Of a stretch of 64,000 nucleotides of DNA, positions 2,056 to 62,300 are shown piece by piece; within the stretch, counting starts at the first letter, position 1; every line of letters begins with the position of its first letter. Under the pieces are notes generated by a model. That model ran no database searches and had not been told where the DNA came from. It was given only the letters and a program-made list of their open reading frames with translations. Made by a program: the position numbers and the translations under genes. The DNA is from Chthoniobacterales bacterium (lineage in GTDB: Bacteria > Verrucomicrobiota > Verrucomicrobiia > Chthoniobacterales > DYNR01). The stretch lies in assembly GCA_026418675.1 (NCBI GenBank), contig JAOAAX010000007.1:44323-108322 (forward strand). Direction: 5' to 3'.

Positions 2056-2940
2056 TCAGGCGCGAGGGTGAGCTTTTTCGTAAACTTGGCGGATGCGTTC
2101 TGTGGATACGTGGGTGTAAATTTGGGTAGTGGAGAGGCTAGCATGGCCTAAGAGGGTTTGGACACCGCGGAGGTCGGCGCCGGAGTCGAGCATGTGGGTT
2201 GCAAAAGTGTGGCGGAGTTTGTGCGGACTGAGATTGGAAGGTAAATTTTGGAGAGCAGCATATTTTTTTAGCATGACCCAAACGGAGCGGCGAGAGAGGC
2301 GTTTGCGCTGTTTGTTGATGAAAAGAGGGCCTGAATTGATGTTTGCTGCCTGACGGTATTTTTGGATAGCGAGGTTAGCTTCTGGGCCGATCGGGCAAAT
2401 GCGCTGCTTACGGCCTTTGCCAAGGACGCGGACGGTCTCTGTGACGGGATCCACGTCCGTAACATCCAAGCCGACTAGCTCTGCGAGACGGATGCCTGAA
2501 GCATAGAGAAGCTCGATGATTGCGGCGTCGCGCAGAGGCATCCAGGAGGGAGCCTGCTTAGTTTTGGGTTGTGCTACGGGCGCCGAGAGAAGGGTTTCCA
2601 TCTGGCTAAGGGTGAGGAATGATGGCAACTTCTTCGGAATTTTGGGAAGCTGGATGGTGGCAATTGGGCTGGACTTCACAAGCCCGTGCCGAGTGGCATA
2701 GCGGTAAAGGGAGCGATAGGCAGCAAATTTGGAGCGAATGGTAGTTTTTTCTTGACCTTGTTTGGTGAGGTGGAAAAGGAAAGCGCGGAAGTCGTCCTCG
2801 GTTGCTGATTGGAAGGTGAGGTTAGGACGGAAAGAGAGGAATTCCTCGAGGGCGGAGCGATAGTTTCGCAAGGTGTAGGGCGAAGCGTTTCTGTCGCCCT
2901 CGAGGTAACGGAGGAATTGCCGGCAGAGAGAATCGTTCAC
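2056..2940 (-). CDS. xerC: Tyrosine recombinase XerC/XerD family
   Basis: A 294-residue site-specific recombinase of the Xer type, which resolves chromosome dimers at dif. It has an N-terminal SAM-like DNA-binding domain (about residues 1-90) and a C-terminal catalytic domain. All catalytic residues are visible: R151 in ASGIRLAELVG, K175 in LGKGRKQR, H240 and R243 in SPHKLRHTFATH, H266 in LGHASLSTTQ, and nucleophile Y275 in IYTHV. The start is GTG. Full length and linked to housekeeping genes, it is more likely the chromosomal Xer enzyme than a phage integrase. XerC and XerD cannot be separated by eye. No dif-like site is seen directly beside it. Confidence 0.9.
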   Translation of the reverse strand: MNDSLCRQFLRYLEGDRNASPYTLRNYRSALEEFLSFRPNLTFQSATEDDFRAFLFHLTKQGQEKTTIRSKFAAYRSLYRYATRHGLVKSSPIATIQLPKIPKKLPSFLTLSQMETLLSAPVAQPKTKQAPSWMPLRDAAIIELLYASGIRLAELVGLDVTDVDPVTETVRVLGKGRKQRICPIGPEANLAIQKYRQAANINSGPLFINKQRKRLSRRSVWVMLKKYAALQNLPSNLSPHKLRHTFATHMLDSGADLRGVQTLLGHASLSTTQIYTHVSTERIRQVYEKAHPRA

Positions 2941-2991: not shown

Positions 2992-4803
2992 TTACTGTTT
3001 GCCCATAGGCTCACCGAGGGGTGGTTGGAGCGTGTCCTCCACTTTGCCAGTTTTTTGAGTTTGTCGCTCGAAGCGGAGGATGGCGGAGCGGGTTTCGACT
3101 CCATCAGGGGAGGTGGCCACGATGGGTATTTCGTAGCGGTTGTTGGGGAAGATAAAATGATAGCGGAAGGTGCCATCGGGGTTGAGCTGAATGGGCCGGC
3201 CTGCGATAATGACCTGTGCACGTGGATCCGTGCCGCCATAAAAGATGACCTCCGCGTTGACATTCATGAAGAATTCGCGAGCGGAGGGAGGGACCTCCCA
3301 GCTTGCCAGGGCAGCACTGGAGATCGCACCCAGCTCTGAGCGTGCCCAACTGGAGAGAGTTTCGGATGTCCAGCTCGAGAGTGTTTCGGCGGACCAGCTT
3401 GAGAGTGTTTCCCGGAACCAACTGGACAGGGTTTCGACGTTCCAGCTTGAGAAGGTTTCGCGGAACCAGCTCGAGAGGACTTCCTGAGTCCAGCTTGATA
3501 TTGCTGCACGGCTCCAAGAGGCGATTTCGGCACCAAGCCAACTCGCGCCGATGGCTTGGCTCCAGCTTGCCAGGGATTGCCAGCTTGAGATTTCTGCGGC
3601 GCCCCAACTCGTTGGGAATTCGCCACGGGCTGCTGCAGCAGCGGTCCAACTGGAGCGTTCGGCAGGAGCCCAACTGGCAGCAAAGAGACTGAACCAGGAA
3701 GCGGCAGCTTGGGCGGCGGAAAATTCGCGCGCAAACTCGAGCGAGGAAAGGGCTGCAGAGGAAAGGGCTGCGGAGGATTCAGCCTGGGCTGCGATTTCAC
3801 CGGGACGTAGGCCCCAGCTTGCAAGCCACTCGCTCGCAGCGGCATGGCGGACCGCCTGCGACCAGCTCAGGAGGGATTCGGTCCAACTGCTCAGGACTTC
3901 CGAGCTGAGAGCCTGGGAGCTGAGGGTTTCGGAGCTGAGTGTCTGGAATTGGACAATGCCACTGAAGAGGCTGGACTCAGCTGCAGCCTTTTGGAAACGG
4001 GCAAGGAGCTCACTGGCGCTTTCGCTGGAGGCAACTTCGGCGAGGCGAGCAGTGATGGCTGAAGAGAGGGACGCAGATTCGAGGGAGCCAGAAAGCAGCG
4101 CAAGGAGGAGCTGGTCGCCGAGCAAAGCTTTGAGAAGCGCCATGGCTTGCTCGTTGGCTTGGAGACCGGGAATCGGCCCGCCGTTTTTTGCGGCAGCATG
4201 CCGGGCTTGAAGATCGGCGAGGTGGCGCATGAGCTCGGGATGGTGCCGCATGCGCGGAGGTAAGCTGGCAAGAATGGCCGAGAAAGCGGCATCCAAGGGC
4301 AAAGTGGCAAAGGAGAAGGAATCGTCGGGCGAAATTTCCGTCCGCGGCGTGGTGGCGGTTCCCGAAACTGCGAGGGAGTGCCATTTGCCTGAGCGGTAAT
4401 AGCCGATTTCGACTTGGTAGGTGCTGCCGGATTTGCTGACGGGAATATACCAGTTGCGGGCCTCAAACGGGACTTCAAACTCCAGTTCGGTTTGTTTTTG
4501 GTTTTGTTCGAGGCGGTAACAGCGGATGACAGCTGGGCCACCGGGGTGGGCGGTTACGTCCAAGTCCCAATAAGTGAAGAGGCGATGTGGGTCTTGAGCA
4601 ACGAGATAGACAGAAACTTCACCATACGTGCGGGGGAGCTCACCAATCTCTGCTCCTGGCTGTGAGACTGCCGGCACCTGAAGACCGGTCGGTATGGCAT
4701 ACTTGCCGATGAATTCCTCTTGTTCTGCACCTTCTAGAATAGGCTCCACACTGATTTGGAAGCCACCAGGCGCAGCCGATGTGTTTTGATTTTTTTCTCC
4801 CAT
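2992..4803 (-). CDS. DUF4912 protein with tandem SSW octapeptide repeats
   Basis: About 603 residues, function unknown. Residues about 40-160 form a DUF4912 domain (YGEVSVYLVAQDPHRLFTYW). A further beta-rich segment near the C-terminus (residues about 505-590, with RYHFIFPNNRYEIP) looks like a second half of the family fold. Between them lies a Ser/Trp/Ala-rich region whose core is an 8-residue repeat of the form ETLSSWxx. No signal peptide or membrane segment is seen, so a cytoplasmic location is likely. The ORF track starts at a TTG; I prefer the ATG seven codons later (MGEKNQNT), which has GGAG seven bases upstream. It sits between xerC and a phosphopantetheinyl transferase. Confidence 0.8.
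   Translation of the reverse strand: MGEKNQNTSAAPGGFQISVEPILEGAEQEEFIGKYAIPTGLQVPAVSQPGAEIGELPRTYGEVSVYLVAQDPHRLFTYWDLDVTAHPGGPAVIRCYRLEQNQKQTELEFEVPFEARNWYIPVSKSGSTYQVEIGYYRSGKWHSLAVSGTATTPRTEISPDDSFSFATLPLDAAFSAILASLPPRMRHHPELMRHLADLQARHAAAKNGGPIPGLQANEQAMALLKALLGDQLLLALLSGSLESASLSSAITARLAEVASSESASELLARFQKAAAESSLFSGIVQFQTLSSETLSSQALSSEVLSSWTESLLSWSQAVRHAAASEWLASWGLRPGEIAAQAESSAALSSAALSSLEFAREFSAAQAAASWFSLFAASWAPAERSSWTAAAAARGEFPTSWGAAEISSWQSLASWSQAIGASWLGAEIASWSRAAISSWTQEVLSSWFRETFSSWNVETLSSWFRETLSSWSAETLSSWTSETLSSWARSELGAISSAALASWEVPPSAREFFMNVNAEVIFYGGTDPRAQVIIAGRPIQLNPDGTFRYHFIFPNNRYEIPIVATSPDGVETRSAILRFERQTQKTGKVEDTLQPPLGEPMGKQ
3335..3960 (-). repeat. 24-bp coding repeat encoding (E-T-L-S-S-W-x-x)n
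   Basis: In-frame tandem repeat inside the DUF4912 gene. The best units lie at the 3' end of the block, where ETLSSWFR, ETFSSWNV, ETLSSWFR, ETLSSWSA, ETLSSWTS and ETLSSWAR follow one another without gaps. Towards the 5' side the units degenerate to Ala/Ser-rich variants that keep the SW pair at 8- to 15-residue spacing. The DNA repeats (agcttgagagtgtttc-like) are imperfect, which suggests selection on the peptide rather than very recent expansion. Confidence 0.85.
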
Positions 4804-4911: not shown

Positions 4912-5499
4912 TTATGGGAAAGGAGAAAAGATGATTTGTTTATCGGGAAATAAAGATAAAGGGGAATAAGCGGCAAAACAGGCGAGGAAGTTGTTGTTGA
5001 GGAGTGCGTGTTGGAGGTGGATCGTTGTATTGTGGAGGAGTGCGGTAGGGGAGTTAGGATTGTCGAGAAGGATTTGGCAATTGCAGAGGCCGCCGTGGTA
5101 GATGCCATGACCGTCGAGTTTGAGGGCTGCTTCTTTGGCGGTCCAGAGGTAGAGGAAGCGGAGAGAGCGATCTGGAGGTGGTGCGGAGAAGAGCCACTTT
5201 TTTTCGGTTTCGAAGAACCAGCGGTTAGCGATTTTTTCGGCGGAGATTTTGCGTGAGGTAGGCTCAAGATCAGCACCGACTGGCTGAGCTGCGAATGCGG
5301 CGAGGGAGTAACCTAAGGAGGTGGAGACGTTAAAGTGATAGTTAGGAGCATTGAGGAAAATAGGTTTTCCGTTGGGGAGGCGGGTGATTTGGGCGTTGGG
5401 GTAACCGTTTTTTTGGGCTTCGCGGAGGCAGAGTGTCTGCCAGTCGTTGGATGGCCAGAGGAAGATTTCGACACGGAGTTTCTGAGGTGACGTGGTCAA
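4912..5499 (-). CDS. 4'-phosphopantetheinyl transferase, Sfp type
   Basis: Transfers the phosphopantetheine arm of coenzyme A to a serine of a carrier protein. The 195-residue length fits a compact Sfp/AcpT-like enzyme. Diagnostic motifs are the Mg-binding GADLEP and the later WTAKEAALKLDG, which corresponds to the WxxKEAxxK signature. No ATG is present in frame upstream of the motifs, and an in-frame TAA lies two codons before the chosen TTG, so the start is TTG. No carrier protein or synthase gene is nearby, so the substrate (fatty-acid ACP or a secondary-metabolite carrier) cannot be inferred from context. Confidence 0.85.
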   Translation of the reverse strand: MTTSPQKLRVEIFLWPSNDWQTLCLREAQKNGYPNAQITRLPNGKPIFLNAPNYHFNVSTSLGYSLAAFAAQPVGADLEPTSRKISAEKIANRWFFETEKKWLFSAPPPDRSLRFLYLWTAKEAALKLDGHGIYHGGLCNCQILLDNPNSPTALLHNTTIHLQHALLNNNFLACFAAYSPLSLFPDKQIIFSPFP

Positions 5500-46269: not shown

Positions 46270-49200
46270 ATGAAAAAGTTCCCCCGTGTTTTGCTAGTGC
46301 TTTGTGTTCTAATAGTTGCGAGCCTCACAGCACTCATTATCCTTCTCAGAGACGACCAAAAAGCTGAAAAACCCAGTCAGCCTTCCTCTCCTCCTAATTT
46401 GGTATCGACTCCGGCCCCTCCCGGAACTCAACCTATAAGCAATGCTCAATCCAATAATCCGCCGTCAGCTCCTCAACTCCCCTCCTCACCTCCTGTTCAG
46501 CAGCCACACCACGTTTTTCAATCTCCCCTTCAAACCCCATCGCACTCTCTGCCACAAAAAAGTTCGCCAACAACTACTGCAAGTACTCGGTATCCTGTAA
46601 ATCTTCCCCCCGTTGTTCCTGTTCCACAAGGCGAATTATCAACCATTCGGTTTCCCGAACGTTGGCAGGGCGGTAGGATTCTTGCAGCAGGCCGGGAAAA
46701 TGGAACGGGCCGCCGAATTTTAATCATTCAGCCAGACAGTCTTCCTTATCCCGTTCGCATTGTTGAAAAAGATCCCAATGTAAACAAAACCTCTGACCCA
46801 AGACGAAGTGACCTCGCCGCTTTGGATCATGAATTAGTAGCGGACCGCCTCATCGTCAACCTTGGTCCCAATGCCACCGATGCCGATGCCGAACGCGTCG
46901 CCGCTCTCCTCGGCGCCACGGTCGAACGCCGCCTCAATTCCCTCGGCGCCTTCCGCCTCCGTCTCCCGCGCGTCGAATTCGACGGCGTCCCCAAAGCCCT
47001 CGCTTTGCTCGAACAAAAAGGGATTTCCGCCGACCCTGATTACATCGTCTGGGCCAGTTCCACTCCCAACGACCCCCTCTACACCGATGGCACCCTCTGG
47101 GGTATGCACAACACCGGCCAGAATGGCGGCACTCCCGATGCCGATATTGATGCTCCTGAAGGGTGGGCCGTTCGCACATCCGCTCCGGATGTGGTTGTCG
47201 GCGTCATTGACACAGGTGTCCGCTACACCCACGAGGACCTCGTCTCTAACATGTGGGTCAACCCTGGCGAATCCGGCACCGATTCCCTCGGTCGCGATAA
47301 ACGCACCAATGGGGTGGACGACGACGGCAACGGCTTCGTGGACGATGTCCACGGCATCAACGCAGTTACCGGTTCCGGAAATCCCATGGACGACAATGGC
47401 CATGGCACTCACTGTGCCGGCACCATTGCGGGGCGCGGCAATAACGGCCTCGGGGTGGTAGGTGTGGCCTGGCAGGCCAAAATCATGGCGCTCAAATTCC
47501 TGGGAGGTGCGGGCGGCGGCGCCCTCTCCGACGCCATCACTTGTATTCAATATGCCATTGCCAAAGGTGCGCACCTGACTTCCAACTCCTGGGGCGGCGG
47601 TGACTACAACTCCGCCCTTGTTGACGCCATCATTGCCGCTCGCAACGCTAATCAACCCTTCATCGTTGCTGCTGGAAATAACTCCCGCAACAACGACATG
47701 GAGCCAACTTACCCTGCCAGCTACACGATCGAAAACATCGTCGCAGTGGCTTCGATGAACCGCCTCGAAACTCTCTCCAGCTTTTCCAACTACGGCTTTG
47801 CCACTGTCCACGTCGCAGCTCCCGGTAGCGGCATCACCTCCGCTTATTCTAACTCCGACAGCGAATACAAGCTCCTCAACGGCACCAGCATGGCCTGCCC
47901 CCATGTTTCGGGCATCGCTGCCCTCCTCCGTGCCCAATTTCCCTCCGATAACTACCGCCAAATCATCCACCGCATCCTCCGCTCCGTCGATGTCCATTCC
48001 TCCTACACAGGCAAAGTCCTCACCAACGGCCGCGTCAATCTCCACAAAGCCCTCACCACAACCAAAAACACTCCGCCCAATGACGATTTCGCCGAACCGC
48101 TCTTCGTTCCAGGTCCCGAAAACGCCCTCATCACTTACAACATCGGTGCCACAGCCGAATCGGGTGAACCCAACCATGCGAGCGTCGCACCTCAGAAAAC
48201 CCTTTGGTTCACCTACACGGCTTCTTCCAATGGCCCTGTTGTCATCAACACCTCTGGCAGTGATTTCGACACTGTCCTAGCTGTCTATACAGGCAACTCT
48301 CTCGGCAGCCTCACGCTCATCGCTCAAAACGACAACGAAAACTCCAGCACCACTTCCAGCAAAGTCATCTTCAATGCTACTGCCGGCACCACCTACCGCG
48401 TCGCTGTCGGCTCCAAAACCGGCGCCGAAGGCAGTCTCATCTTAGTATTTTCTTATCCACCGCCCAATGACAACTTCGCCAACGCAACTAGCCTCAGTGG
48501 CGACTCCGTCATCCGCGATGGTTCCAACTACAACGCCAGCAAAGAGGCTGGAGAGCCCAACCACGCTGGCCATCCTGGCGGCGCAAGTGTCTGGTTCTCT
48601 TGGACTGTTCCACAAACCGCCACCTATACCATCAGCACAGTTGGCGGCACGTTTTTTGACTCCCTCCTCGCTGTCTATACCGGCAACAACCTGACGAGTC
48701 TCACCCACGTCGCCTCCAACGATAACTACGGCGATTTCGCTTCCAGCCGTGTCACCATCAACGCTACAGCAGGCACCACATACCGTATCGCCATAGATGC
48801 CAAAGACGGCGTCGGCGGCACCTACAAACTCACCATCGGCCGGCCACCCACAAACGACAATTTTGCAGATGCAATCCCCATCACCGGCACACCGCCTCTC
48901 ACTATTACCGGCCGCAATTTCGGTGCCACGATCGAGCCAGGCGAACCCAACCACTCCACCCGCGAAGGCATCCCCTCCGCCAATTCCGTTTGGTGGAAAT
49001 GGACGCCCGCTCAATCCGGCACTTACCAAATCACCCTCGAGCATTCCAACTTCGACACCGTCCTCGCCGTTTATACGGGCAATGCTGTCAATAACCTGAC
49101 TCTCGAAGCCGCCAACGACGACTTCATCGGCTGGGCAAGCCTCCTCAGCTTCACCGCGCGCGCCGGCGTTACCTACTACATCGCTGTGGATGGCTACTCC

Positions 49201-52200
49201 GGTGCCTCCGGCAACATTGACATGAAAATCCTCCCGCCCCCTGTCGCTCTAACCAATGACTACTACGCCGACCGCATCCGCCTCTACGGCGCTCAAATTA
49301 GCGTGGACGCCAGCAACGTCGGTGCAGAGCACGAATACCCAGCCGAAGACATCACGAAAATTTCAACCATCAATCCTGGGGAGCAAGAAATCTACGAAAA
49401 CCGAACCGTCTGGTGGGAGTGGACTGCACCGGCCAATGGCAACGTCACCATTGACACCCTCTACAGCAGCTTCGACACCGTTCTCTTCGTCTGCACAGGC
49501 AACGCTCTCAACAACCCCACCCCTGTGACGTGGAATGACGACATCGGAACGGAAAACGGCGTCTATGTCCGCCAGTCCCGCGTCACTTTCAATGCCGTCC
49601 GCGACACCCGTTACCAAATCATGGTCATGGGCCGCACATGGACCACTTTTGGCTCCATCCGCCTCAACATTAACCAACCCCTTTCCAACCAACCGCCGGT
49701 TATCCATTCCGCTTCCCTATCCCCAGCCAATGCCACCTTCAGCGACCAAGCCGTCAGCGTTGCCAACATCGTCGCCACGGACCCCGAAAACAACACCATC
49801 TCCTACACCTACCAGTGGCAATCCTCCACCGATGGCGGCCTCACTTGGACCAACGCTGCGAATCAAACCTCAGCCACCCTCACTCCCGACGACGCCAACT
49901 CCGGCCGCCTCTGGCGCTGCGTCCTCACCCCACGCGACCCTACCACCACTGGCGAACCTTACACCACCGGCTTCATCGCGCTTGACCGACGCCCCCCAAC
50001 CATAGCAGCCCTCGGGCAACCCTTCTCCTATCAAAGCGGCCTTGTCATTCCCTCCCAGGCAAACCCTGGCAACCGCAAGGTCCTTCTCAACGAAATCAGC
50101 CAGGGCAGCAACCCTGCACAGCCCGCGGAGTGGTTCGAGTTCCTGGTCCTTCGTCCGCGTGATCTCCGCCGGCATTATTTCATGACCTCCTCCGGCGGTT
50201 ACATTGTCCTTACCGGTCATTCCCTATGGCAAAACGTCCCTGCAGGCACCCTCGTCGTGATCTACAACGCCGCCAATCGCGACCCCATCCTCCCACCCGA
50301 CGATTTCGACCCAGCCGATGGCCGACTCGTCATCCCCAGCAATAGCACACTCTACATCCGTCAGGATTCTACGAATCCTTCCGGTTGGTTCCATTCTCAG
50401 AACGAAACCGTCGGCGGCTTGGATCTCGACGACGCCATACGCATCTCCGACAACCGCTGGAATACGAACGACACCGACCCACCTTCGCCTGGCAGCCTCC
50501 TCGATGGCATCCACTGGGGCTATTTCGCCAACGGCGTCACAGCAGATACCCCCCAAGTTTATCAAATCGAAGGCCTCCCCGCTGGCCAAGCTCTGGTCTT
50601 CACCTCCAACGACCCAGCTTTCGCAGAAAACGGTGCTGCTTGGACCAAATTCGCTGCAACTGCTGCCAACGCAACCCCTGGCGAGCCCAACAACCTCGAC
50701 CAGCGCGATTGGATTAACGCCCTCCGCGAGCCAACTCCCCGTTGGCGCGTTGCCGATACCAGCGAACCTCTCCCACCCGGCCTGACCTTAAACGCAACCA
50801 CAGGGCTGCTCTCCGGCACGCCCTCCGGAAACGTAAGCCTCACCCGCAACCTCGTCCTCGAGCGCTACAGCTCCACCCAAAACGTCCGCCGTGCCTTTAC
50901 TCTCCGCGTCGTTGCACCCGGTGTGTCCTCTGCCACGGTTTATGAGCCGTTCAGCTACCCGCTCAACCAGAGCCTCGTCAACGCCAGCGCCAATGCTACA
51001 GGCCTCACAGGCACCTGGAATGGCTCCCTCCAGGCCAACGTCACTGGCACAAGCCTCGCCCCGAGCGGGATCAGCTTTGCCGGTGCCCGCTTCAATACAA
51101 CTGCCTCCGGCACCTCCGATCTTTATGTTCCTTTCACCACCGCTGCGCGCCAAACCCTCAATCCCCCTGCCAACGGCTCACGCACCATTTGGATGTCTTT
51201 CACCGTCCGCCTCCCGGCCACAGGAGGGCAGCCCGGCGTGCACCTCGCGCGTGACGCCTCCACACCGATTGCTGGCGTGCGCGTCAGCGACTCCTCCGCA
51301 CGCTTCTGGGTTTGTAGAAATGCCGCTGTAACAGGTGACGGCACCGCGAGCCCCAATAACTCCATCGTTTCCAATACCGATTATTTCGTCCTCGCTCGCT
51401 TTGTGGTCACTAACAATTCCGGAAATGTGTCCGACGGTTGGGGCGGTAACGGCACCATCGCTGCCGATGCATGGGTTTACCCTGCCTCTGCACCTCCCTC
51501 TAATGCCCCCACAGGCACCGGCACCGCCTCCTTCTCCGCACGCACCGACGGCACCGGCACACGCTATATCAACGGCCTCCTCATCCGCGGCTCCAGCGCC
51601 ACTGCAGGCATGCAGGTGGATGAAATCCGCATCGCTACAACCTTCGAGCAAGTTGCACGCGATCCGGTGGACGGCGCCCCTGGTTCCCTTACCGCCACTG
51701 CTATTAGCGGAACGGCCATTCAGCTCAACTGGGTTGACTATGCCAACAACGAAACTGGTTTCCGGGTAGAAGTCAGCACCGACGGCAATTCTTGGAGCCC
51801 CCTGGCCACTCTCGCTTCCAACTCCACCTCTTATCTCCACACGGGACTCCCCAACGGGGCCACACGCTACTACCGTGTTTGTGCGATCAATCCAACTGGC
51901 GACAGTGGCTTTGCTGGCCCAGCCTTTGCCACCACATGGACCGCTCTCCAATCTTGGCGCCACACCCACTTCGGCACTACGGAAAATACCGGCAACGCAG
52001 CCGATTCCGCAGACCCCGACGCCGACGGTATCCCCAACCTCATCGAGCATGCCCTTGGCGGCACTCCTACAAGCCCCGCTTCGCGGCCTCAGCCCACCGT
52101 CGGCACAACCACCGTTAGCGGCCAGCGGCGCCTTACGCTTACCTTCACCCCGCAGGTCCTCAGCGGATTGACCTACATCGTGCAAGCCAGCAACGACCTC

Positions 52201-52332
52201 TCCAATTGGTCCACCCAGACCGACGTCACCTCCAGCCTCACGGCAGGCCAACCCTACACCTTCACCGACTCCGCCGACCTCGCCACCACCCCACGCCGCT
52301 TCCTCCGCCTCCTCATTCGAACTTCAAATTAA
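46270..52332 (+). CDS. Giant exported subtilase with PPC repeats, lamin-tail, FN3 and shared C-terminal module
   Basis: 2020 residues. An N-terminal hydrophobic helix (VLLVLCVLIVASLTALIILL) acts as signal or anchor and is followed by a Pro/Ser/Gln-rich spacer to about 120. A subtilase propeptide and S8 catalytic domain come next (about 190-600), with D314 in GVIDTGVRY, H378 in NGHGTHCAGT and S540 in NGTSMACPHVSG. Four pre-peptidase-C-like repeats span about 600-1130. Later parts are an Ig-like segment, a lamin-tail-like domain (KVLLNEISQGSNPAQPAEWFEF), a beta-sandwich, and an FN3 domain (LTATAISGTAIQLNWVDYANN). It ends with the DADGIPNLIEHALGG module shared by the next three proteins. The likely role is an extracellular or surface protease. 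First of four tightly spaced giant genes. Confidence 0.9.
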   Translation: MKKFPRVLLVLCVLIVASLTALIILLRDDQKAEKPSQPSSPPNLVSTPAPPGTQPISNAQSNNPPSAPQLPSSPPVQQPHHVFQSPLQTPSHSLPQKSSPTTTASTRYPVNLPPVVPVPQGELSTIRFPERWQGGRILAAGRENGTGRRILIIQPDSLPYPVRIVEKDPNVNKTSDPRRSDLAALDHELVADRLIVNLGPNATDADAERVAALLGATVERRLNSLGAFRLRLPRVEFDGVPKALALLEQKGISADPDYIVWASSTPNDPLYTDGTLWGMHNTGQNGGTPDADIDAPEGWAVRTSAPDVVVGVIDTGVRYTHEDLVSNMWVNPGESGTDSLGRDKRTNGVDDDGNGFVDDVHGINAVTGSGNPMDDNGHGTHCAGTIAGRGNNGLGVVGVAWQAKIMALKFLGGAGGGALSDAITCIQYAIAKGAHLTSNSWGGGDYNSALVDAIIAARNANQPFIVAAGNNSRNNDMEPTYPASYTIENIVAVASMNRLETLSSFSNYGFATVHVAAPGSGITSAYSNSDSEYKLLNGTSMACPHVSGIAALLRAQFPSDNYRQIIHRILRSVDVHSSYTGKVLTNGRVNLHKALTTTKNTPPNDDFAEPLFVPGPENALITYNIGATAESGEPNHASVAPQKTLWFTYTASSNGPVVINTSGSDFDTVLAVYTGNSLGSLTLIAQNDNENSSTTSSKVIFNATAGTTYRVAVGSKTGAEGSLILVFSYPPPNDNFANATSLSGDSVIRDGSNYNASKEAGEPNHAGHPGGASVWFSWTVPQTATYTISTVGGTFFDSLLAVYTGNNLTSLTHVASNDNYGDFASSRVTINATAGTTYRIAIDAKDGVGGTYKLTIGRPPTNDNFADAIPITGTPPLTITGRNFGATIEPGEPNHSTREGIPSANSVWWKWTPAQSGTYQITLEHSNFDTVLAVYTGNAVNNLTLEAANDDFIGWASLLSFTARAGVTYYIAVDGYSGASGNIDMKILPPPVALTNDYYADRIRLYGAQISVDASNVGAEHEYPAEDITKISTINPGEQEIYENRTVWWEWTAPANGNVTIDTLYSSFDTVLFVCTGNALNNPTPVTWNDDIGTENGVYVRQSRVTFNAVRDTRYQIMVMGRTWTTFGSIRLNINQPLSNQPPVIHSASLSPANATFSDQAVSVANIVATDPENNTISYTYQWQSSTDGGLTWTNAANQTSATLTPDDANSGRLWRCVLTPRDPTTTGEPYTTGFIALDRRPPTIAALGQPFSYQSGLVIPSQANPGNRKVLLNEISQGSNPAQPAEWFEFLVLRPRDLRRHYFMTSSGGYIVLTGHSLWQNVPAGTLVVIYNAANRDPILPPDDFDPADGRLVIPSNSTLYIRQDSTNPSGWFHSQNETVGGLDLDDAIRISDNRWNTNDTDPPSPGSLLDGIHWGYFANGVTADTPQVYQIEGLPAGQALVFTSNDPAFAENGAAWTKFAATAANATPGEPNNLDQRDWINALREPTPRWRVADTSEPLPPGLTLNATTGLLSGTPSGNVSLTRNLVLERYSSTQNVRRAFTLRVVAPGVSSATVYEPFSYPLNQSLVNASANATGLTGTWNGSLQANVTGTSLAPSGISFAGARFNTTASGTSDLYVPFTTAARQTLNPPANGSRTIWMSFTVRLPATGGQPGVHLARDASTPIAGVRVSDSSARFWVCRNAAVTGDGTASPNNSIVSNTDYFVLARFVVTNNSGNVSDGWGGNGTIAADAWVYPASAPPSNAPTGTGTASFSARTDGTGTRYINGLLIRGSSATAGMQVDEIRIATTFEQVARDPVDGAPGSLTATAISGTAIQLNWVDYANNETGFRVEVSTDGNSWSPLATLASNSTSYLHTGLPNGATRYYRVCAINPTGDSGFAGPAFATTWTALQSWRHTHFGTTENTGNAADSADPDADGIPNLIEHALGGTPTSPASRPQPTVGTTTVSGQRRLTLTFTPQVLSGLTYIVQASNDLSNWSTQTDVTSSLTAGQPYTFTDSADLATTPRRFLRLLIRTSN
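48070..49680 (+). repeat. Four tandem pre-peptidase C-terminal (PPC-like) domain repeats
   Basis: Within the subtilase gene, four units of about 390 bases each begin PPNDDFAE, PPNDNFAN, PTNDNFAD and LTNDYYAD. Each contains an aromatic strand (such as LWFTYT or VWWKWT), FDTVLAVYTGN and a closing TAGTTYRVAV-type strand. Such beta domains often target or mature extracellular proteases. Confidence 0.85.
51940..52332 (+). repeat. Shared C-terminal module, copy 1
   Basis: Encodes TALQSWRHTHFG, the acidic loop DPDADGIPNLIEHALGG (thrombospondin-3-like, probably calcium-binding) and a beta segment ending TPRRFLRLLIRTSN. This is the most divergent copy (EHALGGTPTSPASRP). Confidence 0.9.
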
Positions 52333-52347
52333 CCTTCAACAAAAATT

Positions 52348-55300
52348 ATGCGCCCCCCTTCTTATAGGTTCCTTCTACTCTTTTTTGTTCTTACAGTGAG
52401 CGCTGCGTTCCCGCCTCTCGCCCGGGCGCAGTATTACACGTTCACGACGAATGTTTCGATCAGTTGGAACTCTGGCTTCATGTCTGACGGCACAGATAAC
52501 GGGGCGATCTATGTCCCCGAGCACGTGACAGAGCCCAAAGGCGTCATCTTTTTCTGGAATGGCGATGGCGAAGACCGCCGTTACATGACGACAGTCGGTT
52601 GGTTTCAGCAAATCGCCCGTGCCATGGACTATGCCATCATCGCCCTGCAAAGCGTTTACACCAAAGGCTACCACATCCTCGCCACACAGAATACCGTCAC
52701 TTGGACGCTTGAAAATGCTGCCATTGCCAGCAATCGCCCCGTCCTCCGCAATGCTCCCGTTTACGCAATGGGGCACTCCCGTGGTGGGATCGTCAGTATC
52801 CGCTGTGCGAAACACATCCCATGGCGCATCCTCGCTTACGCCGCTAGCAAGGGCTACGATTGGGACTACGACAATCCTGATAGTCCTGCCGATCCTCCTT
52901 TCCCACCCAATTATCAGCTCGTGCCCGGCTTCTGGATGCCAGGGGAGACAGATTCTAACACAATAGTCAATCCTTTCAAAGTCCAACAATCCTTCCAAAC
53001 TCTCTGGCGCAACATCGGTGCGCTGGCCGCCTATGCCGTAGATTACAACGTTAGCCACGAGGACATGAGCGGGCAATACCACGACTTTGCTGCCCTTCTT
53101 CTTCGAGAAGCCCATGCCCTGCGCCATCCCGGCACTCCCCCCTCCAGCACTCCAGGTGATTGGCTCCAGCTCGGCAACCTCACCTTCTCCAGTGGCTGGT
53201 TAGCGGAGCGTGCATTCTTTAACAATTCCACGAGTGACATCAATTCGCAGTGCACACAAACCGTCCGCCCCACATGGCCACAAATTGCCCCCGTAGCAAA
53301 CTTTACTGGCAACGCCAGCATCGCTTCTTGGCTGCCCAATGAACTCATGGCACGTGTTTACCGTGCCCACACCTCAACCCAGCCTACCTACGTCAACCGC
53401 CTTGAGGTTCCCCGCCAAAACCCCCTCCAAATCGAAACCCCTGCCCGCTTCCAGCGCTTCCGCACTACCGACCCCGTTTTCATTTCCGTGGATCCGCGCG
53501 AGTGGGCCGATTCCACCACCATCACCAAGATGGAGTTCTACCTCAACACCACCAAGCTCGGCGAACGCACCGATGGCAACTGGACGTGGGATGCCGGCAC
53601 CATCTCCACCCCTGGCATCCACGCCGTGATCGTCGAAGCCGAAGGAGCCGACGGCACCCGCTATGCCGCTTACACGGCCATTTTGGTCTTCGACCCCCTC
53701 TCCAGCGGGAATCTGACGAATACATGGACAGGCAACGCAAGCAGTAACAACATCCAAGCCGGCGAAAATTGGAGCGCAGGAAATTCAACTTGGCAGTCCA
53801 TCACAAGTGGCAACATCACGGTCCTTGATACTCGCCAACTCTTTGTTCTCAATGGAGCGAGCCGGAATAACCAAGCAACCCTCAGCACCGGCAGTGCTTC
53901 TAACGATCCCGCCATCTTGGGCTTTCGCTTCCTCAGCGCCAATGGCACAAACCCATTCACTATCTCGGGCTGGCGCAGAATTTATCTGGGAGCAATGGGT
54001 ATCGTAAACTTGGATAACGACCAGCAAGTCTTTAATAACGCGGAGCTATTCCTCAATGGCAGTCAAATCTGGGATGCTTCTGCAGGTAATCTCCTCATCG
54101 GTAATGGCACCTTGAACAAAATCCGCTTCGGTTCAAGGCAGTCCTCTCTACCTCGTTTCATCCCAGAAGGAAGCACCCTCACCATTACCGGCTCCGCTAA
54201 CACTACCATCAATGCACCCATTGACGGCAACGGCGCACTCATCAAAGATGGTTCAGGTATACTTATAATCAATTCTAATTGCTCAAATTGGACGGACTCA
54301 GACCAGCCTTGGTCGCCTTCCTCTTTTCACGAGACCCTTTGTGTTATGAGAGGCACATTGCGACTCGGATCAAACGCTGTATTGAATCCCCGCACACGTC
54401 TCTTGATTGCCAATCATCCCAATGCAACTCTCGAAGCCGATGGCCTCAAACTGACATTCGCAACCCTCCAAGGCGGAGGTTCAATTCATCTAGGAACAGG
54501 TGGCAACCTTACTATTACTCACGACTTCGTTCGCAATTCCTCGAATAATTCCACGATCTGGTTTTACCCAATTGCTTTCAACTATCGCGGATCCATTCAT
54601 GGAGGGTCCCCTAACAACACAACCCTCTTCATCCAGCCAGGTCCTAACAACCTTAACACCTACCGTCTAGGAGGCAATAGCACATTCGCGGGACAAGTGC
54701 AGCTTAGTAGTGGCAACCTCATCATTAGCCACACTAGTGCTCTAGGCGCCAGCGGCACTGGCAACGAAACCTTTCTTCCGAGTGGGTCAGTCCTATTCCT
54801 ACTCGGCAACGGGATGAACATTCCGGAAACGCTCAGCCACAATGCGGCCAACACGGTGGCACTGATTAACCAGCGCGGCAACAACACGTGGAGCGGGCCG
54901 ATCCATTTTTCGACGCGATCTGGCAGCCCCACGGTTCAAATCCACAACAACGGAACGAACTCAACCCTTACTCTCTCTGGGGGAATAAGCGGCAACGCCA
55001 CGGCAGGCAATTCTACGTTTGTGCAACTGCAGCCGAACGGTATCGGCAGCGGGATTCATGTTACGGGCGGACTGCAGAATGGCACGGCTGGCGGGAATCT
55101 GCGTGTGGTGGTGGCGCCGAATGCGACGGGGAGCTGGGTGCGGATGAGCGGAGTGAGCAATTACACTGGCGCCACGCAGCATGTGCGCAACACGCTGCTC
55201 ATTGGGTCGGATGTGCCAGCAAGCGGCGATGGGGCGCTGGGGAACTCGGCCGGCGGCACCATTTTCCTTGGCCGCTCGGGCCACACCGTGGCTACGGACA

Positions 55301-56376
55301 ACATTGTGTTTCTCACCGACGGCCCTGTAACCATTGGGCGCACGCTTCAAGTCAACAATGTCAACACGGGTGGCAACATTACGGTTGGGGGCAACAGCGG
55401 GCATGTGTCGAACTACACGGGTAGCATCACGATCAACGAAACGCGCACGCAGATTGCGCTCACCTCTGCTTCGGGCGGCAATGTGGTCATCAGCGGGCAG
55501 ATCAGCGGGGGAGCGAGCAACATGACGCTTACCAAAACGGGCCCGGGCACCCTTACCTTGGCTCGCGCTGGAGGCAACACCTACAATGGCTCGACGACGG
55601 TTGCCCAAGGCACGCTGCTTGTCACCAACACCTCTGGCACGGCCACGGGCAACGGCTCGGTGACGGTGCAGAACAACGCGCGGCTTGGAGGCACGGGCAC
55701 GATAGCCGGGGCAGTGACGATGCAGAGCGGCGCACGGTTGGTGTTTGACCTGACGACCAACGCCAGCGTGCACGACCGGTTGGACATTAGCGGCACGCTG
55801 ACGCTCAACAACACGGCGATTGACCTGACCAGCACGAACAACGGGATAGCAGCGGGGAACTACACGCTGGTGCAGGCGGGGAGCATCACCGGCAGCCCTG
55901 GCAGTGTGGTCGTGCCGAGTGGGTGGAATGGGACGGCGAGTGTGGTGGGAGGGAACCAACTGCGGGTGCAGATTCAGCAAGCGCTGACAGCGCTGGAGCA
56001 GTGGCGGCAGACGCACTTTGGCTCGCCTGCGAATAGTGGCGACGGGGCAGATACTGCCGACCCGGACGCCGACGGCATCCCCAACCTCATTGAATACGCG
56101 CTGGGAGGCAACCCGACGAGTGCGGCCTCTCGCCCACAGCCTACCGTTGGCACCGCTGTTGTGAGCGGCCAGCAACGGCTCACGCTGACCTTTACGCCGC
56201 AAGTTGTCAGCGGTCTGACCTACCTCGTCCAAGCCAGCAACGACCTCTCCGACTGGTCCACCCAAACCGACGTCACCTCCAGCCTCACCGTCGGCCAACC
56301 CTACACCTTCACCGACTCCGCCGACCTCGCCACCACCCCACGCCGCTTCCTCCGCTTGCGAGTCACTTCAAACTAA
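52348..56376 (+). CDS. Exported GxSxG hydrolase fused to autotransporter-type beta-strand repeats
   Basis: 1342 residues. A cleavable signal peptide (LLLFFVLTVSAAFPPLARAQ) leads to an alpha/beta-hydrolase-like domain (about 25-280): GVIFFWNGDGEDRRYM, the nucleophile elbow MGHSRGGI with S144, and a possible His in NVSHEDMSGQYHDF. An Ig-like domain follows (about 370-450), then about 700 residues of Asn/Gly/Thr-rich beta repeats with the passenger-type motif LTKTGPGTLTLARAGGN. The chain ends in the shared C-terminal module. There is no autotransporter beta-barrel, so secretion must use another route. It starts 15 bases after the subtilase stop. Confidence 0.8.
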   Translation: MRPPSYRFLLLFFVLTVSAAFPPLARAQYYTFTTNVSISWNSGFMSDGTDNGAIYVPEHVTEPKGVIFFWNGDGEDRRYMTTVGWFQQIARAMDYAIIALQSVYTKGYHILATQNTVTWTLENAAIASNRPVLRNAPVYAMGHSRGGIVSIRCAKHIPWRILAYAASKGYDWDYDNPDSPADPPFPPNYQLVPGFWMPGETDSNTIVNPFKVQQSFQTLWRNIGALAAYAVDYNVSHEDMSGQYHDFAALLLREAHALRHPGTPPSSTPGDWLQLGNLTFSSGWLAERAFFNNSTSDINSQCTQTVRPTWPQIAPVANFTGNASIASWLPNELMARVYRAHTSTQPTYVNRLEVPRQNPLQIETPARFQRFRTTDPVFISVDPREWADSTTITKMEFYLNTTKLGERTDGNWTWDAGTISTPGIHAVIVEAEGADGTRYAAYTAILVFDPLSSGNLTNTWTGNASSNNIQAGENWSAGNSTWQSITSGNITVLDTRQLFVLNGASRNNQATLSTGSASNDPAILGFRFLSANGTNPFTISGWRRIYLGAMGIVNLDNDQQVFNNAELFLNGSQIWDASAGNLLIGNGTLNKIRFGSRQSSLPRFIPEGSTLTITGSANTTINAPIDGNGALIKDGSGILIINSNCSNWTDSDQPWSPSSFHETLCVMRGTLRLGSNAVLNPRTRLLIANHPNATLEADGLKLTFATLQGGGSIHLGTGGNLTITHDFVRNSSNNSTIWFYPIAFNYRGSIHGGSPNNTTLFIQPGPNNLNTYRLGGNSTFAGQVQLSSGNLIISHTSALGASGTGNETFLPSGSVLFLLGNGMNIPETLSHNAANTVALINQRGNNTWSGPIHFSTRSGSPTVQIHNNGTNSTLTLSGGISGNATAGNSTFVQLQPNGIGSGIHVTGGLQNGTAGGNLRVVVAPNATGSWVRMSGVSNYTGATQHVRNTLLIGSDVPASGDGALGNSAGGTIFLGRSGHTVATDNIVFLTDGPVTIGRTLQVNNVNTGGNITVGGNSGHVSNYTGSITINETRTQIALTSASGGNVVISGQISGGASNMTLTKTGPGTLTLARAGGNTYNGSTTVAQGTLLVTNTSGTATGNGSVTVQNNARLGGTGTIAGAVTMQSGARLVFDLTTNASVHDRLDISGTLTLNNTAIDLTSTNNGIAAGNYTLVQAGSITGSPGSVVVPSGWNGTASVVGGNQLRVQIQQALTALEQWRQTHFGSPANSGDGADTADPDADGIPNLIEYALGGNPTSAASRPQPTVGTAVVSGQQRLTLTFTPQVVSGLTYLVQASNDLSDWSTQTDVTSSLTVGQPYTFTDSADLATTPRRFLRLRVTSN
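55989..56376 (+). repeat. Shared C-terminal module, copy 2
   Basis: Encodes ALEQWRQTHFG to RRFLRLRVTSN. It shares about 50 and about 70 base runs of identity with copy 4, including all of ctcaccgtcggccaaccc and what follows to the end of the domain. Confidence 0.9.
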
Positions 56377-56392
56377 CTATATTTTTCAATCA

Positions 56393-59365
56393 GTGAAAAA
56401 ACTCCTCGTTTCTCTATCCATCGTCTGGGCAACCAAAGCCCTGGCGGCAAATTTTACTGCCACGCTAATCCCTTATGGAACAGGCGAAGGGGACTACGGC
56501 ACCAATGGCGTAAATCAAACTTCGGGGGTCATACCAAATCCCCTCCAAGGGGACTACCGTTGGGGGTGGCACGATACCTCAGGGAATTACGATAATGGTT
56601 GGTTCCCTCAAGTAGGTTTGCCTTCAGGCAGAGTTTATTACGACGATTACAAACGCTTCGTTTGGCGAGCACTAGAACGCGAACCAGGCAACTACACCGC
56701 CGGAATAAACCTCATCAATTGGCACTTACAACAAGCCCAGCAGCGCGGCCGTCGCTTTTCCTTTCGCGTCATGATCTTAAGTGAATACGAAGGAGATGTG
56801 GATGGCGATGGACAAACCGATGGCCTTACCGGTGTGCCAAACTACATTGCCAACAACTCCTCCCTCGGCCGCCGCTTCTCCTCCACAAAAGCGGAATGCG
56901 AGAACATTTTCATTCCCTATTGGAATCAACCTTACTTCCTCGATCGGGTCGAGGCCCTCTTAAATGCCCTCGGCTCCGCTTTCAACGGGGATCCACGCCT
57001 CGCTTTTATTGACATCGGCATTTATGGCCATTGGGCCGAGTGGCACATGAGCGGTATGGGGCTTTCTTCTATTCCTCCAGAAATAAACGCTACCGTTGCA
57101 ACTCGGCAGCGCCTCATTGATATTTACAACGCCGCATTCCCCAACACACGCATTCTCATGCTCCCCGACATTGATGGCGATTACCCCGATCGCAGCGGAG
57201 CAGGCTTCGCTTATGCCATGCAAAACTACCCTCGAATGGGTGTCCGTAAAGACAACCTCTCCAACGCCTGGTTCGAGCAGGAAGTTGGCGATTGGTTCCC
57301 CATCATCCGCGACAATTTCCAAAACCGTTGGCGCACAACTCCTTTCGTAACTGAATTTTTCGGCGGCGAAAACGAAAGTGCCCTTCAACTTGCTGAATCG
57401 CAGGTCATTCGCTATAACGTCAGCATGGTTGCCACCAACCAATGGCACAATAGTCCCCAGCGTATCGAAATCGGGAAAGCCGCCGGTCATCGATTCCAAC
57501 TCCATAATGCCACTTGGCCCGATAGTGTCCAAGCAGGCTATGCCTTCACGATTAACTCGACATGGTCAAACATCGGAGTCGCTCCAGCTTATGAAAACTG
57601 GGCTCCAACGTGGGAATTATACTCCAGCAATGGGACACGCGTTTGGGCCGCTCGTTCCCGCCTCGATCTCCAGCGCTTCCTTCCAACTACCGTAAACCCT
57701 GACGATGACGTTAACACAACCGATACAAACAATCCCATCGTTATCTCCGATACTCTCGCTGTCCCCGCAAACTTAACAGCCGGCAACTACAGCCTACGCC
57801 TCCGTATCCCATTCATCCTCAGCAACGGTTCTGAGCATCCCTATCTCCTGCCCCTCGCCATCGCTATCCGCGGCCGCGATTCCCAAGGCCGTTACACGCT
57901 CGGCAACCTTTCCATTACGACTCCTACTACCCCAGCTCCCGCTCTAACACTCTCCGGTCCCTCTGTCCTCTACAGTGGAATCTCCGCTAATTTTACCGCC
58001 AATGTCACGAGCAATTCCACCATTAGCCAAGTCCAACTTTTGGCCGATGGGAATGTCGTAGGAACAGACACCACTTCCCCTTACACCTTCTCTTGGACCC
58101 CAAATGCCACAGTCGGAGTTGTAACTTTCGTCGCGAGAGCAACAGATTCTGAAAACCGCACAGGCGCTTCCCAACCCCTGAGCTACGAAGTCCGCTTAGC
58201 TCCCAACAACGCACCCAATGTAACATTGACTATTACTCCAGCTTCCGGTCCTTACATCTCCCCTGTCAATATTACCCTCACAGCCAATGCAACCGATCCC
58301 GATGGCGATTCCATCTCTCGGGTCGAATTTTACCGCGGCACAACTCTCCTTGCAAACGATACTTCCCCACCTTACTCCACCAATACAACCCTCACCGCCG
58401 GCACCTACACCCTCCTCGCCCGTGCCTACGACAGCCGTGGTAAATTCGGTTCCGCTACACAAGACATAACCGTCCAAAATCCCCCAAAACAACCCTATGG
58501 TGGAACCCCACGCAATATCCTCTCTATAATCCAGCTCGAGGATTACGACGAAGGAGGACAAGGTGTGAGTTGGCACGATACAAGCCCCACCAACGAAGGC
58601 GGAGCATATCGCAACGATAGTGTGGACATTCAAAACACCGGGGATACAGGAGGAGGTTATCACCTTGGCTGGGTTAACAACGGAGAATGGCTCGAATACA
58701 CTGTCTCTGTTCCCCAAACAAATACTTACCGCCTCCATATCCGTTACGCAGCCGCAAACGAAGGAGGAAACGCCACCATCTCCCTATCCGTAGATGGTCA
58801 GCCAGCTTGGACAAACCAAACCCTACCCCCCACCGGCCGATGGAGTTGGGATTTCGAAAATTGGACCACGTGGAATAGCACCCAAACCGTCCGCCTCGCA
58901 AAAGGCACACGTGTCCTTCGCTTGTCCTTCGGAAACGGTATGGCAAATTACAATTGGATGACCTTCTCCGCAACTGGTCCCCAGGTTTATGCCGACTGGG
59001 CCGAAGATCAAGGCCTCTCTGGATCCAGCGCAAACGCCACATCTGACCCCGACGCCGACGGCATCCCCAACCTCATCGAATATGCCCTCGGCGGAAACGC
59101 AACGAGTCCCGGGTCGCGCCCACAGCCCACTGTCGGCGCAACCACCGTCAGCGGCCAGCAACGCCTCACGCTCACCTTTACCCCGCAAGTAATCAACGGT
59201 TTGAGCTACTTCGTGCAAGCCAGCAACGATCTCTCCGACTGGTCCACCCAAACCAACGTCACCTCCAGCCTCACCGTCGGCCAACCTTACACCTTCACCG
59301 ACACCGCCGACCTCTCCACCACCCCACGCCGCTTCCTCCGCCTCCGTATCCAGAACAACCAATGA
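56393..59365 (+). CDS. Exported glycoside-hydrolase-like protein with Ig-like and CBM6-like domains
   Basis: 990 residues from a GTG start. A signal peptide (LLVSLSIVWATKALA) leads to a roughly 450-residue domain resembling the DUF4832/beta-galactosidase-like group (RFVWRALEREPGNY, then IDIGIYGHWAEWHMSG and FVTEFFGGENE), probably a TIM barrel with acidic catalytic candidates; the assignment is tentative. Two Ig-like domains follow (SGISANFTANVT and VNITLTANATDPDGDSISRVEFY). A CBM6-like module comes next (IQLEDYDEGGQGVSWHD, YHLGWVNNGEWLEYTV), then the shared C-terminal module. It starts 16 bases after the preceding stop. The expected role is binding and possibly cleaving extracellular polysaccharide. 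Confidence 0.72.
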   Translation: MKKLLVSLSIVWATKALAANFTATLIPYGTGEGDYGTNGVNQTSGVIPNPLQGDYRWGWHDTSGNYDNGWFPQVGLPSGRVYYDDYKRFVWRALEREPGNYTAGINLINWHLQQAQQRGRRFSFRVMILSEYEGDVDGDGQTDGLTGVPNYIANNSSLGRRFSSTKAECENIFIPYWNQPYFLDRVEALLNALGSAFNGDPRLAFIDIGIYGHWAEWHMSGMGLSSIPPEINATVATRQRLIDIYNAAFPNTRILMLPDIDGDYPDRSGAGFAYAMQNYPRMGVRKDNLSNAWFEQEVGDWFPIIRDNFQNRWRTTPFVTEFFGGENESALQLAESQVIRYNVSMVATNQWHNSPQRIEIGKAAGHRFQLHNATWPDSVQAGYAFTINSTWSNIGVAPAYENWAPTWELYSSNGTRVWAARSRLDLQRFLPTTVNPDDDVNTTDTNNPIVISDTLAVPANLTAGNYSLRLRIPFILSNGSEHPYLLPLAIAIRGRDSQGRYTLGNLSITTPTTPAPALTLSGPSVLYSGISANFTANVTSNSTISQVQLLADGNVVGTDTTSPYTFSWTPNATVGVVTFVARATDSENRTGASQPLSYEVRLAPNNAPNVTLTITPASGPYISPVNITLTANATDPDGDSISRVEFYRGTTLLANDTSPPYSTNTTLTAGTYTLLARAYDSRGKFGSATQDITVQNPPKQPYGGTPRNILSIIQLEDYDEGGQGVSWHDTSPTNEGGAYRNDSVDIQNTGDTGGGYHLGWVNNGEWLEYTVSVPQTNTYRLHIRYAAANEGGNATISLSVDGQPAWTNQTLPPTGRWSWDFENWTTWNSTQTVRLAKGTRVLRLSFGNGMANYNWMTFSATGPQVYADWAEDQGLSGSSANATSDPDADGIPNLIEYALGGNATSPGSRPQPTVGATTVSGQQRLTLTFTPQVINGLSYFVQASNDLSDWSTQTNVTSSLTVGQPYTFTDTADLSTTPRRFLRLRIQNNQ
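58981..59365 (+). repeat. Shared C-terminal module, copy 3
   Basis: Encodes VYADWAEDQG, then DPDADGIPNLIEYALGG and the closing RRFLRLRIQNNQ. The DNA is nearly the same as copies 2 and 4 in the last 150 bases. Confidence 0.9.
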
Positions 59366-62300
59366 TAATATCTATGAAAGTCGTAGGCACTCGTGGCTTC
59401 TCTCATCAACTTACGACTTTCTCAGACCTTAATAACTTCTTCAAATCTATCGCTAAATTGGTCGTTGGCGGTATTTTTTTCTACGCTGTTCCCGGCTTCG
59501 CCTCAGAATGGTTCGTCGCCCCCACTGGCAATGACACCACAGGTAATGGAAGCTTCTCCGCTCCCTTCCAAACCATCGCAAAAGCCATGGCCACAGCCTC
59601 CCCTGGCCATACGATTACCCTCCGGGCGGGAATCTATCGCGAAATGGTCACCTTCAACAAAAGCGTCACCCTCCGCGCCTACCGCCCCTCGACTTCCCAA
59701 CCCGCAGAAGAAGCCATCATTTCTGCCCTTGAGCCAATCACCGGCTGGCAGCTGGATTCAGGCAGCATTTACAAAGCCCCAATGAATTGGGAGCTTGTCT
59801 CAGACACAGATGCTGATAACGACAAACGCCCCTTCATCCAACACCAGGTATTTTTCGTCAACAACGGCACTTACCAACCCTTGGTCCAAGCTCGTTGGCC
59901 CAATATTCCCTACACCATCGCCACAAGTTACACTTACAACGACGTCGCCCGCATGGAATTCGCCAGCGGCAAAGTTGGCACCCCCAATTACATCAACGCA
60001 ACCGTCGCTTGGTTCACAAACGACGAGTCCCACATCCCCATGCCAACTGCCATTCGGAATCTGCTCCCTGGCTCACTCATCACCTACCAGCCGGCTACGA
60101 TGTATTTCTCGCGCACAAACCGTATCCCTGCCAACCCCGCCGAAGCCTTCGCAAATCGCAACGGAAATTTCACAGACGAAATCACAATTTTCGCAGAACG
60201 TCTCAAATCCGATAACCCAAACAGCACCAACCCTTTCAATGGCGATTACGACTACCCCAACGCCGGTTGCAGCTACCACGTGTGGGGAAAAAAGGAATAC
60301 CTCGATGCACCCGGCGAGTGGTTCCGCGAACCCACAGGCACAGGTGACAACGGCACCCTCTACGTCTGGATGCCAGATGGCGCTGCCCCGGGCAACCGCA
60401 TCGAAGCCAAACGCCGCATGCAAACCATCGTCATCGGCAACATGGGGGAAGCCGAGAACCTCTCCAACTCCACACTCGATGGCATCGTGCTCGAGGATTT
60501 GGTTTTTCTCGGCGGAGGAATTTCCGTCAGCCGCAACAGCGACAACCTCACCGTCCGCCGTTGCCGCTTCCTCTTCACTTCCCACCTCGAAGATCAGCGC
60601 TTCAATTACACCGCCCGTTGGAACCGCCGCTCCCTCCTCCTCGCTTCCCGTAATAACCTCGTCGAAGATTGCGATTTCCTCGATTCAGAAAACGCCATCG
60701 AGATCAACGGCCGCAATAACCAAATCCGCAACTGCGTATTCCTCAGAATCGGCGCCAACAGTAATTCCCCTGCCATCCAAGCCACTTTTGTGGATAGCAT
60801 TAACAATGACGGCTCTCCAGCCCAGCGCAACCGCGTCGAACGCTGCACGTTCTCCCTCATCGGCCTCACCGCCATCCAGCTCCACCGCGGTATGGACACC
60901 TTCTTCAACGACGTCAGCGGAACCCACCGCCGCGGCAACGACGTCGGAGCAATCAGCGCCTTCCCAAATACCGACCTCCTCGGCATAGAGGTGGGTTACA
61001 ACTGGGTGCACGACAGCTTCCCTATCCCAAAAGATACCACAAACGGCAAAGTCTTCTACGGCTCCCATGGAATTTACACCGACCGCGGCGTCCGCAATGC
61101 AACCTTTTACAGAAACGTCGTTTGGGGCATGACCGGCCCTGCCATCGCGATGCTCCGAACCGGCAACGGCACCGGCAATAGCGGCCGAATTGTTGACCAC
61201 AATACTGCCACTGGAGAAATTTCCTTCGAAAGCAATACCGACACCATCACCTTCCGCAATAACCTCCAAAATAATACCCTCTTCCCCACCACCAACGTTG
61301 TCCTCACAACCAATCTCCGCGTAAGTAACAAAGGCGCCGGTTGGGTGGACGCCGCCAACAACACTTACACCCTCCGCCCCGACAGCATGGCCATTGATAC
61401 CGGCACCATTCTCGGCAATGCCGCCTATCAGCAATACACCGGCTCTGCCCCCGACGCCGGTGCCTACGAATTCGGCATTGCCTGGGAATTCGAGCCCGGC
61501 GCAACCCTCATCAATGGCACCCTCCCTTCCCCCTCCTCCATCACCATCTCCCCCTCTGCCGACCGCCAAACTGCCACTGCAACCCTCACCGTCTTCCAAC
61601 CCCCGCGCAAGCTCCCCCCCAATTCGCAAGCCCGCTTGGGTTCCAATGCTCCCTCCTCCGCACTTCGCCAAACGGTCCTCGGATCCAATGGTTCCTTAGT
61701 CATTACTTTTGAAAACCTCCCCCTTGGCAACCTCACAGGCTCCCAACCTTTCCAAATTTCCCTCAATGGCGGCTCTTCCTGGCACACGCTGGCCAATGTT
61801 TCCATACCCCCGCCAAACACCGTCAACCTCTCCCTCCCAGCCCAAAACCCCCTCGCAAACTCCACTATCACCATTCCACGCTCCTCCCTCCCCTTTGCTA
61901 GCCCCATACGCTACCAACGAACCGTCACGGTCAGCAACCCCTCCGGTCAGCGGCTCGATTTTTACCCCGTCCTCGTTACCTTTAACGGCTCTGCATGGCA
62001 TTCCGCGGGACAACTCCGCGCCGATGCCGCCGATCTCCGTGCCTCCCTCCCTGACGGCACACCCCTCCCCCTGTGGCTCGAAAGCGGCGCAAACACCTCC
62101 TCAACCCGAGTCTGGGTCCTCCTGCCCCAAATCCCCACCTCCGGCGCCAATTTCCTCCTCACCTCTGGCGATTTCGGCCTCTCCTCCGCAAGCAATGGCA
62201 CGGCCGTTTTCCACTTCTACGATGGCTTTGATAATGGCCAGCGCAGACCAGAATGGGTCGGCAATTCCACCCAGACCGATGCCCACGGCAATACCGCCAA

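Follow-up and report, generated by a model that had tools for sequence, protein, structure and literature searches.

Eight-residue units are a feature of ice-nucleation-type proteins, whose octapeptide or 16-residue repeats form beta solenoids. In the plant starch-binding proteins LESV and ESV1, rows of tryptophans have been proposed to bind glucan helices, and the Trp-rich region is predicted to form an extended antiparallel beta sheet with many acidic residues and with aromatic and acidic strips (PMC10219597). Glycogen can make up 36% of the dry weight of a verrucomicrobial methanotroph, a member of Methylacidiphilum (PMC3460235). Homologous DUF4912 proteins are encoded beside GH57 genes in Methylacidiphilaceae-type and other Verrucomicrobiota; they share both DUF4912 and the C-terminal Ig-like domain with the window protein, and several have a similar C-terminal tail. 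DUF4912 has so far been no more than a name: our full-text literature search for it returned nothing on function, only a single unrelated paper on cotton transcriptomics, and the literature on octapeptide and tryptophan repeats consisted mostly of prion and aggregation papers. The array described here has no Pfam or NCBIfam entry and marks a repeat-bearing version of that family. That the repeat has no described function, as the original prediction had it, agrees with the papers and profile libraries searched, in which none was found.

The protein is encoded in a window of 64,000 nucleotides, the whole stretch of DNA analysed, from a bacterium of the order Chthoniobacterales. The features of the locus are as follows.

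2995..4803, minus strand: coding sequence of the DUF4912/SSW-repeat protein, 603 aa (open reading frame listing and homologue alignment; ATG at 4803, stop at 2992-2994)
4327..4626, minus strand: DUF4912 (PF16258), an FN3-like beta sandwich (Pfam E=4.8e-18; AlphaFold2 pLDDT about 90; Foldseek)
4027..4296, minus strand: helical domain conserved across the short and long forms (AlphaFold2 helices, pLDDT about 50-76; alignment)
3580..3948, minus strand: looser N-terminal part of the SSW array, with LSSxx pentads and irregular ASW/SSW (motif spacing)
3340..3579, minus strand: strict octapeptide block of ten units, Trp exactly every 8 residues (motif spacing)
3283..3339, minus strand: tail end of the array, containing its final ASW (motif spacing)
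3070..3279, minus strand: C-terminal Ig-like domain (FFMxVNAEVIFYGGT..), weakly Glucodextran_B-like in homologues (AlphaFold2; alignment)
2995..3069, minus strand: conserved C-terminal tail (GxVxxTxQPxLxxPMG; alignment)
2056..2940, minus strand: downstream tyrosine-recombinase (XerC/D-like) gene (neighbour clustering; family named by eye from the sequence)

The gene is present as a single copy in its genome, and the ATG start was preferred over a TTG at 4824. From its N-terminus the protein comprises a low-confidence segment, DUF4912, the helical domain, the array of about 220 aa, the Ig-like domain and the conserved tail, in keeping with the predicted soluble protein in which a regular repeat joins two beta domains. 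Membership of DUF4912 is clear from a PF16258 match of 66 bits against a gathering cut-off of 29.4 bits. A Foldseek search of the full AlphaFold2 model against the PDB returned FN3-type domains (E about 1e-4), matches that inform on the predicted fold and not on function. The Ig-like domain is modelled from a 20-sequence alignment with a pLDDT of about 70-83 over most of its length. No known carbohydrate-binding module in Pfam was found above threshold, Glucodextran_B (PF09136) alone appearing below its cut-off in the C-terminal domain of homologues (E=0.003 in L014). Inspection of the window protein by eye revealed neither a secretion nor a membrane signal, and we infer that it is cytosolic. 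The XerC/D-like gene, 51 bp away on the same strand, is a kept neighbour in 25 of the 57 loci compared, window included; a functional link was considered and the adjacency judged positional, so that this gene is probably a neighbour by position only. Immediately upstream lies a 4'-phosphopantetheinyl transferase superfamily gene (4912-5499, minus strand; PF01648, E=3.9e-15).

The array spans approximately aa 286-507 (3283-3948), close to the predicted 3335-3960, and its strict octads cover aa 409-488. Pairs of Trp residues separated by eight positions number 12, against 1.15 expected, and 2000 shuffles that preserved composition never gave more than 6; pairs at lags 16 and 24 are also significant. 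There are 19 [STAL]SW motifs, with a successive spacing of exactly 8 in 12 of 18 cases, and ten consecutive strict octads have motif starts running from aa 412 to 484. The predicted octapeptide SSW repeat is therefore real, and it is indeed looser towards the N-terminal side, where a five-residue LSSxx pattern (TLSSE TLSSQ ALSSE VLSSW) accompanies irregular ASW and SSW motifs. ETLSSWxx, proposed as the unit, fits only the last few units; the general form is x-x-[L/A/I]-[S/A]-S-W-x-x. Where aligned residues of the octads are identical, their codons differ in 97 of 169 comparisons (57%), so what is maintained is the protein sequence of the repeat, which does not stem from recent DNA duplication.

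A DUF4912 homologue is found in 169 of the 213 genomes of the order, so the protein is not confined to one genome, whereas such confinement would have spoken against the original prediction; named homologue loci include members of Chthoniobacter, Terrimicrobiaceae and Methylacidimicrobium. The closest relative, the only other genome of the same family (G001, in 530 contigs), has no detectable homologue, even by profile search. In the short versions, from Chthoniobacteraceae, one SSLFSGxGASWSxQPF module stands between the helical and Ig-like domains. On a quick tree of the flanking domains, long arrays, taken as those with at least seven S[WF] motifs, are scattered over three to four separate positions or more (8 minimum state changes). 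The arrays expanded separately in different clades, most likely from one such module. The window protein sits on a long branch, making its exact place on this tree unsure.

The prevailing period is 8 in the window and in families f6 and f10. The f4 arrays of genus 12 combine W-x3-W with a period of about 17, f8 arrays have periods of 28 (11+17) and 12, and other f8 members show a five-residue leucine pattern in 14-residue units. Common to most clades are a Ser content of 24-29% and a Ser before the Trp; Asp is essentially absent, Cys absent, and Tyr and Lys near zero. The prediction of a Trp every eight residues thus holds in the window's own clade, f6 and f10 included, but not as a general rule: homologues of other clades lack the 8-residue periodicity, which speaks against the prediction for those clades, and the Trp count falls to just 4-6 in some arrays of f8. 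In two f8 proteins (L063, L011) Leu recurs at five-residue intervals (AGLSS AELLT ALSS), reminiscent of pentapeptide repeats; the Pfam pentapeptide profile did not match the LSSxx-rich arrays of L063 and L005, and L063 gave a weak GLTT match below cut-off (E=0.004). A DUF1153 match over cut-off in the array of L006 contained no significant single stretch and was taken as chance. The f11 proteins keep DUF4912 and lack Trp arrays, so the basic function does not require the array. Homologues from four g28 species (L019, L020, L026, L027) consistently end in ..SSWSASQN, retaining the array with no recognisable C-terminal Ig-like domain, and for this reason the array must be more than a linker.

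DUF4912 was also detected in the B. subtilis, Synechococcus and Thermotoga genomes that served as controls. Among Verrucomicrobiota outside the order, a GH57 gene lies directly downstream of the DUF4912 gene, on the same strand, in 10 of 11 loci from several families, and in the named set of Methylacidiphilaceae-type loci the two adjoin in the same orientation in 5 of 5. The proteins encoded there have a short or differently composed linker, in contrast to the long octapeptide array of the window. In genus g6 the two genes are divergent and separated by about 1 kb, where hisF lies in most of the loci drawn, and two reduced genomes of 0.9 Mb, each one contig (G209, G211), keep both about 6 kb apart with no strong match to a GT5 synthase. 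The window's genome carries its GH57 gene on another contig (C52), not adjacent to the DUF4912 gene, and no glycogen genes were recognised among the neighbours of GH57. Its product has a BE_C domain (E=1.5e-34); its best NCBIfam matches are to 1,4-alpha-glucan branching protein, far below the cut-offs of those models, and its nearest solved structure is 2b5d, which we take to be Thermotoga AmyC. AmyC is reported as a glycogen-branching enzyme (PMC6616209). Since the DUF4912 and GH57 genes are unlinked in the array-rich clades, window included, the GH57 link there rests on homology.

Both genes occur in 155 of the 213 genomes and neither in 26, a co-occurrence that mostly reflects one event, the loss in family f12; with this family left out it is not significant (p=0.14). 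None of the f12 genomes (G187-G208) has a DUF4912 homologue, a GH57 branching enzyme or a strong GT5 match, as if glycogen metabolism had been lost. Several array-bearing f7 genomes also have no strong match to GT5 glycogen synthase, and the presence of GT5 does not cleanly track the array. The gene neighbourhood suggests that the DUF4912 protein of this soil bacterium probably helps to handle glycogen, and it is from the GH57 link that we infer a shared function; the proposed ligand is glucan.

Array dN/dS was 0.01-0.22 in 10 of 12 pairs of related species, with one further pair at 0.48 and one with saturated dS; these ratios are rough because several pairs have a dS that approaches or exceeds 1, and three of the 12 pairs share species, so that not all are independent. 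The folded domains of the same proteins gave 0.03-0.16, comparable to the arrays in most pairs, and of 165 aligned Trp sites in the arrays 162 are unchanged. Unit number does vary among close relatives: L014 differs by one octad from L016 and L017, to which it is 94-97% identical. Whole-unit indels of 8 in L022/L023 and of 28 and 14 in L043/L063 were also found, alongside indels of 1, 2, 3, 4 and 25 that are not whole units. The arrays are under strong purifying selection and are not junk.

Among the explanations for such an array, a functionless low-complexity tract expanded by slippage would account for unit numbers that differ among close relatives and for arrays that arose more than once. 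However, it is contradicted by dN/dS far below 1 and near-invariant Trp, and the codons of identical residues are diversified; we give it almost no credence. Because low dN/dS and kept Trp go together with whole-unit indels and with g28 arrays that have no C-terminal domain, we reject neutral drift and consider it unlikely that the array only spaces the domains. The structures entertained in the original prediction, a beta solenoid or amyloid-like scaffold and a membrane-surface helix, fare little better. The octapeptide period of the window's clade would suit a beta coil, the ice-nucleation type included, but no strands appear in two low-confidence AlphaFold2 runs, the octad arrays have no 160-180 degree peak in their hydrophobic spectrum, and the array has no relative and no beta-solenoid match in Pfam, NCBIfam or the PDB. 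A PDB sequence search with the family profile likewise returned nothing significant, and plasmids gave no match. The array thus shares eight-residue units with ice-nucleation-type proteins but differs from them in lacking predicted beta structure or a Pfam match and in its glucan-linked gene context. The membrane helix is opposed by charge, the window array being net negative (23 Glu, 10 Arg, 1 Lys, no Asp). We consider this whole group of structures very improbable. Hydrophobic periodicity is instead helix-like, at 85-110 degrees, in the window, f4g12, f8a, f6 and f10 arrays (the helical domain, as positive control, gave 100 degrees). AlphaFold2 models the array alone as helical (mean pLDDT 49, with 68-80 only over about 40 residues at the regular end) and, from the 20-homologue alignment, as mostly helical and mostly below 50. 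A stiff alpha-helical rod setting the distance between the two ends would fit this periodicity, the better-modelled regular end and the unit-wise indels, yet we find it rather unlikely: model confidence is low in the remainder of the array, a period of 8 amounts to 90 degrees and gives no true helix face, the hydrophobic peak of the f8b and f8c arrays falls at 140-150 degrees, and some g28 homologues have no C-terminal domain to space.

A condensing or phase-separating scaffold, also part of the original prediction, is possible. Here a sticker-and-spacer or helical assembly array would condense or polymerise the protein with no glucan binding of its own, in line with its extreme composition and with a spacing that varies by clade, as expected if the number of sites outweighs their register. 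We rate this a minority prospect, as very low dN/dS at non-Trp positions as well, together with whole-unit indels, goes beyond the usual needs of stickers and spacers. The repeated short motif and the GH57 adjacency outside the array-rich clades could reflect a multivalent platform on which a putative protein partner would dock, for instance glycogen synthase or the GH57 branching enzyme; the genes adjoin most consistently in clades with a short array or none, and this seems to us improbable. The reading we prefer, tentatively and at less than an even chance, is that the window protein is a non-catalytic accessory of glycogen branching, with a multivalent array possibly binding glucan chains. 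The two beta-sandwich ends and the helical domain would be an old conserved core, and the array a repeat domain grown from one SSLFSGxGASWSxQPF module and then held by purifying selection. Its many closely spaced S-[S/A]-W sites may jointly bind a repetitive ligand, most plausibly the alpha-glucan chains of a growing particle, and the protein could thereby organise or tether glycogen and its branching enzyme. This glucan-branching role is supported by the GH57 adjacency outside the order and in Methylacidiphilaceae-type loci, the nearness of the two genes in g6 and the reduced genomes, the GH57 enzyme of the window's genome, the joint absence in f12, the array dN/dS, the retention of Trp, the whole-unit indels, the g28 arrays that have no Ig domain and the Trp rows proposed for LESV/ESV1. 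It is weakened by the separation of the two genes in array-rich clades, by a co-occurrence driven by f12, by f11, which has no Trp array, by the few-Trp f8 arrays, by the lack of an above-threshold CBM match and by the several array-bearing f7 genomes with no strong GT5 match.

With LESV and ESV1 the window protein has in common that it is non-catalytic and that its Trp residues are regularly placed; we use this as a working analogy and claim no homology. Their Trp-rich region is a predicted acidic beta sheet, whereas the window array is Ser-rich, helix-leaning and free of Asp, and the low-confidence AlphaFold2 helices include none of the strands of an antiparallel sheet. That the arrays form a bacterial Trp-array class binding and ordering alpha-glucan chains during branching, an independent counterpart of LESV/ESV1 repeatedly expanded from one SSLFSGxGASW module, is by this analogy conceivable but doubtful. 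If the arrays do bind glucan, protein-assisted organisation of a storage polysaccharide would extend beyond plants. The tie of DUF4912 to GH57 branching enzymes, absent from the original prediction, gives a directly testable function, and the arrays are a good example of a low-complexity repeat whose period shifts from lineage to lineage (8, about 17, 28, 12, 14) under purifying selection.

Elsewhere in the window, on the plus strand at 46270-63432, four very large adjacent genes (2020, 1342, 990 and 1356 aa) match subtilase with a PPC domain, PATR repeat, Big_7, CBM6/CBM35-like and DUF2341 families; by these matches the run looks like a cluster of secreted or autotransported surface proteins.
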